Positions 5,468 through 25,845 of a stretch of 64,000 nt of DNA are shown here, piece by piece (within the stretch, counting starts at the first letter, position 1; each line of letters begins with the position of its first letter). This DNA comes from Sphingopyxis solisilvae (GTDB lineage Bacteria > Pseudomonadota > Alphaproteobacteria > Sphingomonadales > Sphingomonadaceae): the NCBI RefSeq assembly GCF_015475875.1, contig NZ_JADKYM010000001.1, positions 124,001-188,000 of the forward strand, written 5' to 3'. The translations under genes were made by a program, and so were the position numbers. The notes below the pieces were generated by a model. That model was not told where the DNA came from, ran no database searches, and saw nothing but the letters and a program-made list of their open reading frames with translations.

Positions 5468-5543
5468 CGTCATTGCGAGCGAAGCGAAGCAATCCAGAGT
5501 GTGACAAGCCGCTCTGGATTGCTTCGCTTCGCTCGCAATGACG
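5468..5543. repeat. Palindromic repeat, family A copy 1
   Basis: Near-perfect inverted repeat beginning CGTCATTGCGAGCGAAGC. Each arm is about 33 bases, with a loop of about ten. It starts ten bases after the ferredoxin stop. Related copies lie at 19156, 24573 and 27225, all just after stop codons. Confidence 0.9.
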
Positions 5544-12262: not shown

Positions 12263-13672
12263 ATGGCCGATGCCGACGACGCCCCGGCGAACATGAAAGC
12301 GCCGGATGCGGCGACGGGGCGGCCTGCGGCGCTGACAAGCCGCATCACGGGTTCGCTGGCGCGGCGCATGATCGCCATCGCGGCGCTGTGGATTTCGGTG
12401 TTGCTGATCGGCGGCGGACTGGCGCTCGACCGGGTGCTGACGGGAGCGATCACGCGCAATTTCGACACCAGCCTCGAATATGTGCTGATCGCGATGATCC
12501 GTTCGTCGGAGATCGGGCCTGACGGCGAGGTACGGCTGGTCGAGCCGCTGGGCGATCAGCGTTTTCTGGAGCCTTACAGCGGCCTTTACTGGCAGATAAG
12601 CGGTGGCGGTCAGGAACCCTATCGTTCGCGTTCGCTGTGGGAACGCTCGCTGAAGGCGCCCGCGCCGCATGTCGACGATGACATTCACATTTATGACAGC
12701 AACCAGTTTCCCGACGAGGAGCTGCGGGTTCTCGAGCGCAACGTCATTCTGCCCGGGAGCAAGGTCAGTTGGCGCTACCAGATCGCCCAGTCGCGCGAAG
12801 CGCTCGATACCCAGGTCGGTGCGGTTCGCGCGACGCTGATCCCCAGCCTCGCGCTTCTTGGCCTCGGGCTGCTGATCCTGGCCGCGCTCCAGACCTTTTA
12901 TGGCCTCTGGCCGCTGCGCCATATCCGGCGGGCGATTGCCGCCATGCGTGGTGGTGAAAACCGCCGCGTCGACGCGCCGTTGCCACTCGAAGTCCAGCCG
13001 ATGGTTGACGAACTCAACGCGTTGCTGGCGCACAATGAAAAACAGGCGGAGGAGGCACGGCTCCACGCGGGCAATCTCGCCCATGCACTTAAAACGCCGC
13101 TCACGGTGCTGGTGAACAGTGCCACCGGGCAGGCCAATCCCCTTGCCGAAACGGTGCGGCGCGAAGCCGCGACGATGCAGCGGCAGGTCGAGCATCATCT
13201 GGCACGCGCGCGCGCCGTTGGGCGGCGCGGCGCAGCGCAGGCGCGCGCAACGGTGTGGGACAGCGTCGAAAGCGTTTCGCGCGCCGTCGGGCTGCTGTAC
13301 CCGAATGTCCGGCTGGATGCGGAGGGCGACCGGCGACTGATCGCGCGGCTCGAGCGGCAGGACCTGGACGATCTGATCGGCAACTTGCTGGAAAACGCCG
13401 CCAAATACGGCGGAGGCAGCGTGTTTGTGACGGTGCAGCGCAGCGACCCGATGGCTGAAATCATCGTCGAAGACGACGGCCCGGGGATTTCGCCCGCCGA
13501 TCGCACCCGCGTCATCGATCGGGGCGTCCGGCTCGACAGCGGCAAACCGGGAACCGGCCTCGGCCTGGCGATCGTGCGCGACGTCGCTGAAATTTATGGC
13601 GGCAGCATCGTGCTCGAAGAAAGCGAGGATCTGGGCGGGTTGTTGGTGCGGCTCCGGCTGCCGGCCGGGTAG
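12263..13672 (+). CDS. Sensor histidine kinase, PhoQ-like type
   Basis: A 469-residue membrane kinase. A transmembrane helix at about 39-55 and a second at 193-213 flank a periplasmic sensor of about 135 residues. A HAMP-like linker follows. The H-box NLAHALKTPLTVLVN holds the phosphorylated His274. The ATPase domain shows the N-box NLLENAAKYGG, the G1 box EDDGPGIS and the G2 box GTGLGLAIVRDV. The ALKTPL variant of the H-box is common in PhoQ-like kinases. It pairs with the regulator three bases upstream. The signal sensed is unknown, and the upstream PepSY-like protein is a plausible accessory. Confidence 0.93.
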   Translation: MADADDAPANMKAPDAATGRPAALTSRITGSLARRMIAIAALWISVLLIGGGLALDRVLTGAITRNFDTSLEYVLIAMIRSSEIGPDGEVRLVEPLGDQRFLEPYSGLYWQISGGGQEPYRSRSLWERSLKAPAPHVDDDIHIYDSNQFPDEELRVLERNVILPGSKVSWRYQIAQSREALDTQVGAVRATLIPSLALLGLGLLILAALQTFYGLWPLRHIRRAIAAMRGGENRRVDAPLPLEVQPMVDELNALLAHNEKQAEEARLHAGNLAHALKTPLTVLVNSATGQANPLAETVRREAATMQRQVEHHLARARAVGRRGAAQARATVWDSVESVSRAVGLLYPNVRLDAEGDRRLIARLERQDLDDLIGNLLENAAKYGGGSVFVTVQRSDPMAEIIVEDDGPGISPADRTRVIDRGVRLDSGKPGTGLGLAIVRDVAEIYGGSIVLEESEDLGGLLVRLRLPAG

Positions 13673-19155: not shown

Positions 19156-19238
19156 CGTCATTGCGAGCGAAGCGAAGCAATCCAGAGCGGTTTACTCACA
19201 CTCTGGATTGCCGCGTCGCTTCGCTCCTTGCAATGACG
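19156..19238. repeat. Palindromic repeat, family A copy 2
   Basis: It starts CGTCATTGCGAGCGAAGCGA and ends in the complementary TTGCAATGACG. The right arm carries small insertions (CGCGTC, CCTT) compared with copy 1. It lies between the convergent complex I subunit and DUF4170 genes. Confidence 0.88.
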
Positions 19239-19262: not shown

Positions 19263-19478
19263 TTATTCCGCGTCCGGCTGCAACAGCTTGTGCAGATGCA
19301 CGACCACATATTTCATTTCGGCATCGTCGACGGTGCGCTGCGCCGCGGCGCGCCATGCTTTTTCGGCGGTCTTGTAATCGGGGAACAGACCTACGACGTC
19401 GAGGTTGTGGAGGTCGACAAAGTCGGTGCCCTGCGGATCGCTGACACGACCACCGAACACGAGATGCAATTTGCTCAT
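19263..19478 (-). CDS. DUF4170 domain protein
   Basis: A 71-residue protein matching DUF4170, a small alphaproteobacterial family. It starts LHLVFGGRVSDPQGTDFVDL, continues VVGLFPDYKTAEKAWRAAAQRTVDDAEMKYVVVHLHKLL, and is predicted soluble with alternating strands and helices. The function is unknown. It stands alone on the minus strand, and a run of 80 bases separates it from the small membrane-protein cluster upstream. Confidence 0.85.
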   Translation of the reverse strand: MSKLHLVFGGRVSDPQGTDFVDLHNLDVVGLFPDYKTAEKAWRAAAQRTVDDAEMKYVVVHLHKLLQPDAE

Positions 19479-19558: not shown

Positions 19559-19912
19559 TCAATCGTCCTTGCGGCCCTTCGGCAGCAGCGAGCCGAGCAG
19601 CGCGCCGATCGCCACCGCGCCCGCAACCAGCGCCATCGGCTGCTTCTCGGCCACCTCTTTCAGCTTGCTGTTCGCGCGTTTCGCCTGAACCTTGCCCTTT
19701 TCATACACTTCGCCCGCGGCCTCGCGAGCGACGCCTGCCTGTTCGCTGGCCTTGGCCGCCAGGTCGCCGGTGGCCGCACGGGCTCGACCATAGCCGACCT
19801 GGATCCGCGCCTTTGCGGCCTCGGCGGTCAGTCGGGCATTTTCGGCGGTTTTCTCGGCAAGTTCACTCGCTTTTGCCCGTGCGTCGCTGGCGGTTTCACT
19901 GAACGGCTTCAT
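19559..19912 (-). CDS. Membrane-anchored YqjD/ElaB-like protein
   Basis: A 117-residue protein. A long charged, Ala-rich helix (about 1-88) is probably a coiled coil. It is followed by a Gly/Ala-rich membrane anchor (PMALVAGAVAIGALLGSLLP) and a basic tail. This layout matches ElaB/YqjD/DUF883 proteins, which bind ribosomes or the inner membrane in stationary phase in E. coli. I prefer ATG at 19912, where GGAGA is well spaced; an ATG two codons upstream is possible. Its start overlaps the end of the next gene by 17 bases. It is the last gene of the four-gene minus-strand cluster. Confidence 0.7.
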   Translation of the reverse strand: MKPFSETASDARAKASELAEKTAENARLTAEAAKARIQVGYGRARAATGDLAAKASEQAGVAREAAGEVYEKGKVQAKRANSKLKEVAEKQPMALVAGAVAIGALLGSLLPKGRKDD

Positions 19913-20291
19913 CGTCATTCTCCACTGGTTCGCTATAGTCGCCGTCATCGGCGTCGGTTTCGTCGGCCGGGCGCACGCGATCGGTGATCGCATTCGCCAG
20001 TTCCTGAATTTTCCGCGTCAGCCGCGGTGCATGTTCCTTGATCGGCTCGCGCAGCAACCACGCCATCCCCGCCACCGCGGCGAGCGCGATGGGCAGGCGA
20101 TTGTTGCGAAACTCCTGCCGCGCCGCAATGGCAACGTCGTCGATCTTTTCGCCGATCCGGTATTTTCCGCGCGACACCAGCGCGCCGGGCTTGAAAGCCG
20201 CTTTGGCGACATCCAGCCGCCGGTGCAGTTCGGCGCGCTGCAGCATCGACCGCCGCGCGGCGGCGATCAGGCGGTTACGTGTCCGCGGCAT
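19896..20291 (-). CDS. DUF3618-like membrane protein
   Basis: A 131-residue protein with an N-terminal basic amphipathic region, a segment DVAKAAFKPGALVSRGKYRIGEKIDDVA resembling DUF3618, and one likely transmembrane helix (PIALAAVAGMAWLL). Its tail is acidic (PADETDADDGDYSEPVENDD). The function is unknown. It overlaps the holin-like gene before it by 17 bases and the YqjD-like gene after it, so the three are surely co-translated. Confidence 0.65.
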   Translation of the reverse strand: MPRTRNRLIAAARRSMLQRAELHRRLDVAKAAFKPGALVSRGKYRIGEKIDDVAIAARQEFRNNRLPIALAAVAGMAWLLREPIKEHAPRLTRKIQELANAITDRVRPADETDADDGDYSEPVENDDEAVQ

Positions 20292-20739
20292 CGTCGAATC
20301 CTTCGCCCGTCAGATCGCGCCGCAGCGCGGTACGGATATCGCCATAGTGAACCTGTGCCCGCCACGCCGCGATCCCCGCAAACACAAGCAGCGCGCTGAC
20401 CACGACCACCGTTGCAAGCACCGGCCCGATAAGCGGAGCCAGGGCCAGGATCGCCCCGAAGGCCAAAGCCAGCAGCGCGATGCCCAGCGCGGTCGCCGCT
20501 ACGCCGCCCCAGATCGCCGCGCGGCTGGCGCCGTGCAGCGCCAGTTCGCCGCGCGCTTCGAGCAGCGCCAGTTCGGCCCGCGCCGTCGCCGACAAATTGT
20601 CGACGACGTCGCCGACAATTTTGTCGAGCGGCACCGGTGGCGGTTCCACCGGGTGCCCGTCGGGAGCATAGCCGTGGCTTATCCCGTCGAAATGACGCTC
20701 TTCGGACGCAGACGGGGTGTTTGGATCAACAGCGGGCAA
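20275..20739 (-). CDS. Phage-holin-family (YqjE-like) membrane protein
   Basis: A 154-residue protein with a hydrophilic N-terminal 65 residues (PVEPPPVPLDKIVGDVVDNLSATARAELALLEARGE) and two transmembrane helices at about 74-97 and 101-124. This is the pattern of the Phage_holin_3_6/YqjE family. Despite the family name it is a normal chromosomal gene and no phage genes surround it. It lies between the H1-like gene (seven bases upstream) and the DUF3618-like gene. Together they resemble the E. coli yqjC-D-E-K locus in content. Confidence 0.75.
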   Translation of the reverse strand: MPAVDPNTPSASEERHFDGISHGYAPDGHPVEPPPVPLDKIVGDVVDNLSATARAELALLEARGELALHGASRAAIWGGVAATALGIALLALAFGAILALAPLIGPVLATVVVVSALLVFAGIAAWRAQVHYGDIRTALRRDLTGEGFDDAADT

Positions 20740-20746
20740 GGCCTTG

Positions 20747-21292
20747 TCAATCGTTCGAGCCGCCCTTGAGCATCCGGGCGAGCACGAAACCGATCACGGT
20801 CGCGGCGCCAACCGCAATTGCCGGGTTCTTCTTGACCATATCCTTGGTCGACGCGGCAAGCTCGTCGAGATCCTTCTTGTCCAGCGTCGAGGCAAGCCCG
20901 GCCACGGTCGATGCCGCCGAACGGGCATAATCGCCATATTGCTTACCGAACTTGGTATCAACAGTACCCGCGCTGTCTTCGAGCAGCTTGGCGAGGCTGC
21001 CGACCGCTTCGGCGGCCTTGTCCTTGCCTTTGGTCGCGGCGTCGCGCGCCGATGCCGACGCCTGCTTTTTCAGCGCTGCCGCTTCTTCCTTCAGCGAAGC
21101 CGCCTTTTTCGACGCTTCGGCCTTGATCGTGTCGCGCGTCACCGCGATCTGGTCGCGGATCGGATGATCTTTCGCGTCCTTCACGCTTGCGGGCTTGCGC
21201 GCAGGCGCAGCTTTGGTCGCCGCGGCTTTCGCGGGCGCCTTCGGTCGCGGAGCGGCGACTTTCTTGGTCGCAGGAGTAGCGGCTTTGGCCAT
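20747..21292 (-). CDS. Histone-H1-like N-terminus fused to a YqjD-like membrane anchor
   Basis: A 181-residue protein. Residues 1 to about 40 are almost all Lys, Ala and Pro (KKVAAPRPKAPAKAAATKAA), like the tail of histone H1 or bacterial HU-linker proteins. Residues 45-150 form Ala/Lys-rich helices with repeated KKAASLKEEAAALKKQASA heptad-like units. The C-terminal NPAIAVGAATVIGFVLARML is a GxxxG-type membrane anchor as in YqjD. It could tie nucleic acid or ribosomes to the membrane. It is the first gene of the cluster, divergent from eno. ATG at 21292. Confidence 0.7.
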   Translation of the reverse strand: MAKAATPATKKVAAPRPKAPAKAAATKAAPARKPASVKDAKDHPIRDQIAVTRDTIKAEASKKAASLKEEAAALKKQASASARDAATKGKDKAAEAVGSLAKLLEDSAGTVDTKFGKQYGDYARSAASTVAGLASTLDKKDLDELAASTKDMVKKNPAIAVGAATVIGFVLARMLKGGSND

Positions 21293-21438
21293 GGCGTTGT
21301 CCTCTTCTTCTTATGTCGGGCGCCGCACCGGCGAGCATCCCGTTGGTCCTGTCTGAATATATAGCAAGAGCAGGCCATTGGTTCCATAGTCCCGCAAAAT
21401 TCCTATGCGTTATTGCGCTTCCGCTGCACCGCCGATAA

Positions 21439-22770
<1,332 letters not shown>

Positions 22771-24572: not shown

Positions 24573-24648
24573 CGTCATTGCGAGCGCAGCGAAGCAATCC
24601 AGATTTGCGCACACCGCTCTGGATTGCTTCGCTGCGCTCGCAATGACG
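24573..24648. repeat. Palindromic repeat, family A copy 3
   Basis: A near-perfect inverted repeat, CGTCATTGCGAGCGCAGCGA from the left and its complement to 24648. Both arms carry the same GCAGC for GAAGC change compared with copy 1, which shows compensatory change and so selection or gene conversion for the hairpin. Confidence 0.9.
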
Positions 24649-24774: not shown

Positions 24775-25845
24775 TTGGCCAAAGCACCCGCGCGCAAACC
24801 CGCCGCGCCGAAAAAGACCGCATCGACCCCGGCGCCCGCCTCCAACCGCGAAGGCCCGCGCGAACCCGTCCCCTATGACGCGACCCCGGCCGAGCTGGAA
24901 AAATTCTATCGCGAGATGCTGCTGATCCGCCGCTTCGAGGAAAAGGCGGGGCAGCTTTACGGGCTCGGTCTCATCGGCGGTTTCTGCCACCTCTATATCG
25001 GTCAGGAAGCCGTTGCGGTGGGCCTGCAATCGGCGCTCGACGGCGACAAGGACAGCGTCATCACCGGATATCGCGACCACGGCCACATGCTCGCTTACGG
25101 CATCGACCCAAAGGTCATCATGGCCGAGCTGACGGGGCGCCAGGCCGGCATCTCGAAGGGCAAGGGCGGTTCGATGCACATGTTCAGCGTCGAGCATAAG
25201 TTCTATGGCGGCCACGGCATCGTCGGCGCGCAGGTGTCACTCGGCACCGGGCTTGCCTTCGCGCACAAATACCGCGGCGACGGCGGCGTGGCGATGGCCT
25301 ATTTCGGCGACGGCGCCGCGAACCAGGGGCAGGTGTACGAAAGCTTCAACATGGCCGAGCTGTGGAAGCTGCCGATCATCTTCGTGATCGAAAACAACCA
25401 GTACGCCATGGGCACATCGGTCAACCGCGCCTCGGCCGAGGACCAGCTGTATCGCCGCGGCGAAAGCTTCCGCATTCCGGGCATGCAGGTCGACGGCATG
25501 GACGTGCTCGCGGTGCGCGGCGCCGCCGAGGCGGCGCTCGAATGGGTGCGCGCGGGCAAGGGGCCGGTGCTGATGGAGCTCAAAACCTATCGCTACCGCG
25601 GCCACTCGATGTCCGACCCCGCCAAATATCGCAGCCGCGAGGAAGTGCAGGCGGTGCGCGACAAGTCGGACGCGATCGAGCATCTCAAGAAGCTGATGCA
25701 GGATGCCGGAATCGGCGAGGACAAGATCAAGGATATCGACAAGGAAATCCGTGCGATCGTCGCGGAATCGGCCGATTTTGCCGAAAACGCCCCCGAACCC
25801 GAATTGCCTGAACTTTATACCGACGTGCTGGTGGAGCAATATTGA
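24775..25845 (+). CDS. pdhA: Pyruvate dehydrogenase E1 component, alpha subunit
   Basis: A 356-residue thiamine-diphosphate E1-alpha. The TPP motif begins [20 protein letters not shown] and ends NNQYAMG, at about 178-212. The loop [12 protein letters not shown] near 278 matches the region phosphorylated in mitochondrial enzymes. A Lys/Ala/Pro-rich lead ([15 protein letters not shown]) precedes the catalytic part. The start is TTG: AAAGGA lies 8 bases upstream, and no ATG precedes conserved sequence. E1-alpha decarboxylates pyruvate with the beta subunit, which starts two bases after the stop. Confidence 0.96.

Follow-up and report, generated by a model that had tools for sequence, protein, structure and literature searches.

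Gene organization of the locus

The window analysed here is a stretch of 64,000 nucleotides (nt) from Sphingopyxis solisilvae (contig NZ_JADKYM010000001.1, positions 124,001 to 188,000); all coordinates refer to this stretch. It contains four linked minus-strand genes for small membrane proteins, termed A, B, C, and D. Judged from gene order, these genes form a conserved and probably co-transcribed operon of the family Sphingomonadaceae, which is of the same kind as yqjDEK of Escherichia coli. Gene A (20747..21292) encodes 181 residues, with an N-terminal tail rich in Lys, Ala, and Pro (K/A/P), long amphipathic helices, and a C-terminal tail anchor with a YqjD/DUF883_C-like end. Gene B (20275..20739) starts with TTG and encodes a YqjE-type protein of 154 residues, with two hydrophobic segments and membership in PF07332 (Holin-X, holin superfamily III). 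Gene C (19896..20291) encodes 131 residues, comprising a DUF3618-like helical domain and one hydrophobic segment. Gene D (19559..19912) encodes 117 residues, with a YqjD-like amphipathic helix followed by a glycine-zipper-like segment.

An earlier sequence-only reading had described four linked genes, overlapping or nearly touching, with a membrane anchor in each product. This description was borne out. All four open reading frames (ORFs) are present on the minus strand; A and B are separated by 7 nt, and B-C and C-D each overlap by 17 nt. The sequences, together with AlphaFold (AF2) models of A and C, place one hydrophobic segment at the C-terminus of A, two in B, one in C, and a glycine-rich one near the C-terminus of D. 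Only the start of D had to be moved. The start had been given as 19993, but homology among the Sphingopyxis relatives begins 81 nt downstream, at 19912 (MKPFSE...), and the 27 codons upstream of this site are not conserved in these relatives. A Shine-Dalgarno-like site of the TGGAGA/TGGAGGA type precedes the 19912 start in most Sphingopyxis loci.

Conservation in the Sphingomonadaceae

A match to A was found in 142 of 149 genomes sampled from the family (E<=0.001). A total of 108 loci were gathered, and 106 of them had a match to A. One match (L003), in the window's own genome, was rejected as unrelated, and the hidden Markov models (HMMs) found none of A to D there; 105 loci were used. They come from 90 of the 142 A-bearing genomes and from 15 named contigs. 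The 90 genomes comprise the 30 best A matches and 60 chosen by hand, mostly one per genus, with most of the weakest matches left out. For promoter and tail counts, L003, L020, and L041 were dropped (the last two are cut at contig ends), which left 103 loci. The enolases of L005 and L043 are identical, and the two loci probably represent one species.

Iterated HMMs, applied to A's strand only, identified B and C in 104 loci each and D in 101, out of 105; their E-values relate to a small database of 2050 ORFs. Among 102 HMM hits for D, that in L007 is A's own ORF and that in L026 is C's ORF. All three partners were found in 100 loci, and their stop codons are ordered B-C-D in 100/100. The genes overlap or lie within 20 nt of each other in 102/103 loci for B-C, 68/104 for A-B, and 69/99 for C-D, with a choice of starts that is biased to close spacing. 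The named Sphingopyxis contigs have the same genes, with B sequence identities of 62-82%. Since the gene order is kept across a bacterial family, the clustering is far beyond chance, and the earlier treatment of the genes as one unit is upheld.

The neighbouring genes are also recurrent. The enolase gene eno (21496..22770, plus strand) is divergent from A and was found by tblastn in 99/106 loci; it therefore serves as a synteny anchor. A gene for a DUF4170 protein of 71 residues (19263..19478, minus strand; PF13773, E 9.6e-24) lies 80 nt after D and was found in 80/106 loci by the same search, with several loci truncated at a contig end or at the edge of the fetched stretch. At least 80 of the 106 loci thus have this gene behind the operon; it probably lies outside the module. 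No terminator-like site was found on the minus strand between A and the DUF4170 gene.

Other Alphaproteobacteria and gene fusions

The A profile matched 13 of 190 alphaproteobacterial genomes (E<=0.001); three of the 13 are Sphingomonadaceae, and four are weak matches (1e-4 range). DUF3618 was above the cut-off (E<=1e-4) in six of these genomes. In all six, A-type and B-type genes are directly followed by at least one DUF3618 gene; in genome G242, the A-type gene (L170) was detected with a purpose-built HMM. A second DUF3618 gene of G242 (L164) has B nearby, but no A.

The domains of C and D are encoded by a single ORF in L154, L156, L157, L158, and L170 (for example '...HPLVVGAVGVALGALLGSLLPRTRTEDRWLG...'). 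What the Sphingomonadaceae make as separate C and D proteins is thus a single DUF3618 polypeptide in those loci. Moreover, B and C are joined in a single ORF in L030 and L063, which belong to the same genus. In L032, C and D share one open frame, possibly but not necessarily as a fusion. The C+D and B+C fusions are a 'Rosetta stone' sign, and suggest that B, C, and D might act together as a complex.

Protein families of the four products

Member alignments of 28 and 26 rows were built from a hand-picked spread of 28 of the 105 loci, the window's own member included. The hhalign E-values below are each valid for one comparison. B matched PF07332 with an E-value of 5.5e-7 (30.1 bits), above the gathering cut-off of 28.4, and this family was found at E<0.01 in 28/28 aligned B members. 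YqjE of E. coli also matches PF07332 (E 3.5e-21).

C is DUF3618-like (PF12277). The family was found at E<0.01 in 12/28 aligned C members (best 1.5e-8), but the window's own C, with E 1.5e-3 and 19.1 bits, falls below the gathering cut-off of 24.9. C was also considered as a homologue of YqjK. This was rejected for now, since there is no profile-profile alignment and the two agree in operon position only.

Neither A nor D reached the cut-off of any Pfam family. For the anchor family PF19029, A reached 13 bits against a cut-off of 27, and D had no match; among the aligned members, 7/28 of A and 5/26 of D matched at E<0.01. Profile comparison of D with E. coli YqjD gave an alignment of 70 columns (hhalign E 3.8e-9, probability 96%), in line with the YqjD-type helix noted earlier in this protein. 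The alignment of A with YqjD (E 3.3e-5, probability 72%) is limited to 29 terminal columns, residues 71-99 of YqjD, in which VRKSP...GFVLARL of A pairs with VRENPWTGVGIGAAIGVVLGVLLS. The profiles of A and D aligned with each other at E 3.3e-6, to which shared composition may contribute. Matches of A members to the Apolipoprotein, RIMB1, and MT0933 families of Pfam were taken to reflect long amphipathic helices, not homology. Among solved structures, a sequence search for relatives of A gave weak matches to RcsF (best E 0.24), which were taken as compositional.

Comparison with known systems

The likeness to yqjD-yqjE noted earlier was confirmed: A and D are YqjD-like, B is YqjE-type, and C stands in the place of YqjK, though it is nearer to DUF3618. 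In E. coli yqjCDEK, YqjD is a DUF883 protein, YqjE belongs to PF07332, and YqjK to PF13997. Both operons have the order of a YqjD-type tail-anchored protein, a YqjE-type protein, and a small one-pass protein. Both are tightly spaced or overlapping (+2 nt for yqjD-yqjE and -11 nt for yqjE-yqjK in strain MG1655). They share the same kind of anchor in A, and of amphipathic periodicity in A and D. The differences are that no YqjC (DUF1090)-like gene is found among A to D, that A has no DUF883 N-terminal domain, that C is DUF3618-like instead of YqjK, and that there are an extra gene D, a variable tail on A, and an EcfG-type promoter motif. In the reports on E. coli, yqjD is dependent on the general stress sigma factor sigma-S (PMC10746276), and YqjD is described as tying stationary-phase ribosomes to the membrane (PMC10746276, PMC10502375). 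According to the same reports, it is unknown what YqjE and YqjK do and how YqjD acts.

The Pseudomonas aeruginosa operon PA3040-3042 is described as three very closely spaced genes for a YqjD-like, a YqjE-like, and a hypothetical protein. It is reported to be induced by AlgU and in stationary phase, and it has been tied to the cell-envelope stress response (PMC11302039). By this description, it differs from the present operon in the use of AlgU rather than EcfG, and no D gene is mentioned in it. An expression study of sigma-H in the actinobacterium Actinoplanes (PMC11205660) lists, in a table, two pairs of adjacent DUF3618 and Holin-X genes (ACSP50_3381-3382 and ACSP50_4921-4922). As described there, genes for a DUF4235 protein and a BrkB-type membrane protein lie beside the first pair, and no YqjD-type A gene is listed.

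The operon represents the type of system known from yqjDEK and PA3040-3042. In the open-licence literature of PubMed Central, no study of the operon was found, nor any of DUF883 in connection with Sphingomonas or with EcfG. A form with a DUF3618-like partner, the extra gene D, an EcfG motif, and exchangeable tails was not found described there either. The cluster had been called uncharacterised; within that literature this holds for the operon itself, but there are studies of its relatives in E. coli (PMC10746276) and Pseudomonas (PMC11302039).

Promoter region

The EcfG promoter of Sphingopyxis granuli TFA is reported as GGAAC-N16-CGTT, with a well kept -35 and a flexible -10 element. For Sphingomonas melonis Fr1, the reported form is GGAAC-N17-20-GTT, with an enrichment in the 100 nt nearest the start (PMC7083833, PMC6599016). 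Up to 300 nt upstream of A were scanned for GGAAC-N15-18-GTT in the 103 loci, with 30 dinucleotide shuffles as control. The motif was found in 68/103 loci; the reverse strand gave 0/103, and the shuffles a mean of 1.8 and a maximum of 4. The stricter CGTT form was found in 34/103 loci, versus 0.3 in the shuffles. Although spacers of 15-18 were allowed, only 17 (46 loci) and 18 (22 loci) occurred, and for 65 of the 68 motifs the distance to the chosen A start is no more than 100 nt. All 68 loci are outside Sphingopyxis, where they make up 68 of 86. Among seven A-type loci outside the family, four (L154, L155, L156, and L170) carry it, 32-82 nt ahead of the likely A start, which was chosen by eye. 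In the family, the operon thus appears to lie mostly behind a general-stress-type (sigma-EcfG) promoter, a feature absent from the sequence-only reading.

The Sphingopyxis promoters are different. All 17 loci have GGAACC at about -90, and the EcfG-type -35 element GGAAC (21381..21385, minus strand, in the window) is invariant. Where the relatives have CGTT or xGTT as the EcfG -10 element, the Sphingopyxis loci have CTATAT (21359..21364, minus strand, in the window, as part of TTGCTATATAT); variants are ATATAT in L035 and CTATAG in L047. TTGCTATATAT could be an extended -10 element for the housekeeping sigma factor. The Sphingopyxis promoter may be of the EcfG type with an unusual -10 element; it may also, or instead, be an extended -10 promoter (TTGCTATAT).

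Two side observations concern this region. An invariant EcfG -35 element combined with a TATA-type -10 element at the same spacing (21359-21385) could represent a natural sigma-factor switch in Sphingopyxis. In several loci (for example L062, L066, L071, and L106), the spacer between the two elements is of a shared type, GCAAGTTGCGTT or GGCAAGCC, which is perhaps an operator.

Amphipathic helices and proposed function

The AF2 model of A, built with 28 sequences, has a mean predicted local distance difference test score (pLDDT) of 70.6 and a predicted template modelling score (pTM) of 0.35; the pTM of the C model is 0.31. In the A model, coil extends to residue 44, followed by helices at 45-115, 117-139, and 142-155, and by the anchor at 157-177. 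The anchor helix (20762..20824, minus strand; AIAVGAATVIGFVLARML) aligns with residues 71-99 of YqjD. The region of residues 45-155 (20828..21160, minus strand) contains the motifs GKxKA, YGDYAR, KDVDEL, and VRKSP, and has a hydrophobic periodicity near 97 degrees, or about 11 residues per three turns. For comparison, a straight alpha helix has 100 degrees per residue, a heptad repeat 102.9, and a hendecad repeat 98.2.

This periodicity is conserved. The hydrophobic moment of the pre-anchor region of A peaks at a median of 97.0 degrees, and 104/104 proteins are within 95.5-99.5 degrees, with a mean amplitude of 3.35 versus 0.93 after shuffling. YqjD and ElaB both peak at 98 degrees (amplitudes of 2.94 and 3.15), and YgaM at 101. 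The other genes of the window yielded 850 segments of 92 residues, 18 of which attain an amplitude of 2.9 at any angle of 85-115 degrees; three of these are within 95.5-99.5 degrees, and they overlap in one ORF (12263-13672). The signal of D is weaker. With segments shorter than 70 residues left out, 33/99 D proteins were used; they peak at 99 degrees, 27/33 within the band, with a mean amplitude of 2.34 versus 0.96 after shuffling. The window's own D has 2.23, and D is thus below the threshold of 2.9. A near-11-residue amphipathic periodicity and a membrane anchor are common to A, YqjD, and ElaB.

On balance, we favour, with modest confidence, the view that the operon is an alphaproteobacterial stress module of the yqjD-yqjE type, whose probably co-transcribed inner-membrane proteins would coat the membrane and hold idle ribosomes. 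Under stress or starvation, EcfG would be released, and in Sphingopyxis perhaps another sigma factor would act too, so that the operon is expressed. The four inner-membrane proteins would then be made upon growth arrest or envelope stress. A and D would insert by their anchors, C-terminal in A and near-C-terminal in D, and their amphipathic helices of near-11-residue repeats would face the cytoplasm. B would be the two-pass YqjE-type partner, and C a one-pass, DUF3618-like adaptor; both might join D in a membrane complex. This complex would coat the inner membrane; it might also retain idle ribosomes there, an activity reported for E. coli YqjD. In lineages that have one, the Lys-rich tail might reinforce the contact, either to ribosomal RNA or to acidic lipid. 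Membrane coating and ribosome retention are kept together in this favoured proposal, and their respective shares are left undivided.

Several results weigh against the proposal. The B profile aligned poorly with the single YqjE sequence (probability 4%, E 0.0097). C gave no alignment with the single YqjK sequence (probability 0.5%) and no match to PF13997. In YqjD, binding to the 30S subunit is reported for the N-terminal part; the N-terminal DUF883 domain PF05957 was not matched by A or D, and it had no hit over the cut-off in the window's whole genome, so that A is without this domain. At the promoter, GTT is found at the -10 place in 0/17 Sphingopyxis loci, the window's own included. In the own genome, a scan counted GGAAC-N15-18-CGTT 93 times and the reversed pattern 174 times; there is thus no enrichment, and the motif alone proves little in this genome. 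Outside the family, no motif was found within 300 nt in 3/7 A-type loci (L153, L157, and L158). Finally, overexpressed PA3040 and PA3041 are reported not to inhibit growth, unlike YqjD and YqjE (PMC11302039), and the function may therefore differ between lineages.

The strongest alternative, possible though less probable than the module proposed above, is membrane protection without ribosome tethering. A and D would be tail-anchored helices like those of apolipoproteins or late embryogenesis abundant (LEA) proteins and would stabilise the inner leaflet under stress, with B and C organising them. The near-11-residue periodicity, found in 104/104 A proteins and more weakly in D, is in line with this, as is the reported link of PA3040-3042 to cell-envelope stress (PMC11302039). 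The polar face of the A helix is mostly acidic, Lys is commonest at the sides, and the apolar face consists of Ala, Leu, and Val. We take this layout to be that of apolipoprotein-type membrane helices; the computed comparison consists of the Pfam Apolipoprotein matches alone. The Apolipoprotein profile was matched at E<0.01 by 15/28 A members (best 6.2e-8), but such matches of Ala/Lys-rich helices can be compositional, and the window's own A has none. YqjD and ElaB share the periodicity, and YqjD is reported to bind ribosomes; the periodicity therefore does not separate coating from tethering. A helix near 97 degrees may also form a right-handed coiled coil instead.

A broader and rather doubtful extension may be put forward. 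YqjD-type proteins, E. coli YqjD and ElaB included, might basically be tail-anchored, near-hendecad membrane coats, mechanistic cousins of apolipoprotein, LEA, and perilipin helices, that act in one complex with B, C, and D. They might have come independently under general or envelope stress sigma factors in the Gamma- and Alphaproteobacteria, and perhaps in the Actinobacteria. Ribosome tethering and the Lys-rich or acidic tails would then be lineage-specific additions.

The N-terminal tail of A and less likely roles

Residues 1-44 of A (21161..21292, minus strand) form a disordered K/A/P-rich segment that resembles the tail of histone H1; AF2 predicts coil with a pLDDT of about 60. The presence of this tail, which had been pointed out earlier, is real. 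The best 40-residue stretch of A has 77.5% K+A+P. Crude gene calling gave 54 other genes in the window, none of which exceeds 45%, and A is a true compositional outlier. The crude caller missed an ORF at 24775. This ORF, named by eye for its resemblance to pyruvate dehydrogenase E1 alpha, starts with a short K/A/P-rich stretch (24775-24850); such tails are thus not confined to A.

The further idea that the H1-like part defines the protein as a fusion was not supported by comparison. Two rules were applied to the first 45 residues: a strict one (net charge of at least +7 and at least 60% K+A+P+T) and a loose one (net charge of at least +4). The tail was found in 41/103 relatives by the strict and 55/103 by the loose rule. 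The net charge ranges from -9 to +14 and is zero or negative in 42/103. Some A starts (such as L057, L072, and L096) are probably placed too far upstream, which blurs these counts. The tail is present in 17/17 Sphingopyxis loci scored and in their two nearest relatives on the enolase tree. On this tree of 99 loci, the tail state changes at least 14 times by the strict rule, five of these changes being forced by well supported branches, and at least 15 times by the loose rule.

In 17/103 relatives, an N-terminal LPEGTDx(I/V)(I/V)xGA-type motif replaces the Lys-rich tail (L015, L018, L019, L022, L023, L027, L028, L050, L053, L055, L065, L075, L076, L078, L089, L092, and L107); it is perhaps a short binding motif. 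No Pfam match to the globular winged-helix domain of H1 was found in A, and AF2 predicts coil and long helices. The resemblance to H1 is one of tail composition only. Given the turnover of the tail and its coil prediction, the tail is an exchangeable disordered segment of which the basic form is common, and the conserved object is the helix with its anchor.

It is therefore improbable that the H1-like tail is the working part of A, tethering DNA or RNA at the membrane. The strong K/A/P bias, the unstructured AF2 prediction, the constancy in all Sphingopyxis loci and their two nearest relatives, and the basic tails found by the loose rule are compatible with such a role. The tails without positive net charge, the repeated changes on the enolase tree, the missing globular domain, and the similar start of the ORF at 24775 speak against it. 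A conserved nucleic-acid-binding domain was rejected as the core function on the tail counts and the enolase tree. Least probable is that B is a true holin in a lysis cassette or prophage remnant, as the name holin superfamily III of PF07332 could imply, since the operon is kept beside eno throughout the family and YqjE, a member of a chromosomal stress operon in E. coli, is in PF07332 as well, although no search aimed at prophage or endolysin genes nearby was made.

The stress module of the yqjD-yqjE type, as favoured above, offers several comparative handles. The natural C+D and B+C fusions predict a complex, and the EcfG motif would tie the operon to the general stress response. The exchange of N-terminal tails separates a core from an accessory function, and the amphipathic-helix hypothesis is testable. 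Moreover, a candidate role is provided for DUF3618.

Other observations in the window

A 25-bp repeat (CATTGCGAGCGAAGCGAAGCAATCC, with 0-1 mismatch) has five matches in the window versus 0 expected, at 5471-5540, 19159-19183, and 24576-24645. It occurs twice as an inverted pair and looks like a repetitive extragenic palindromic (REP)-type element.

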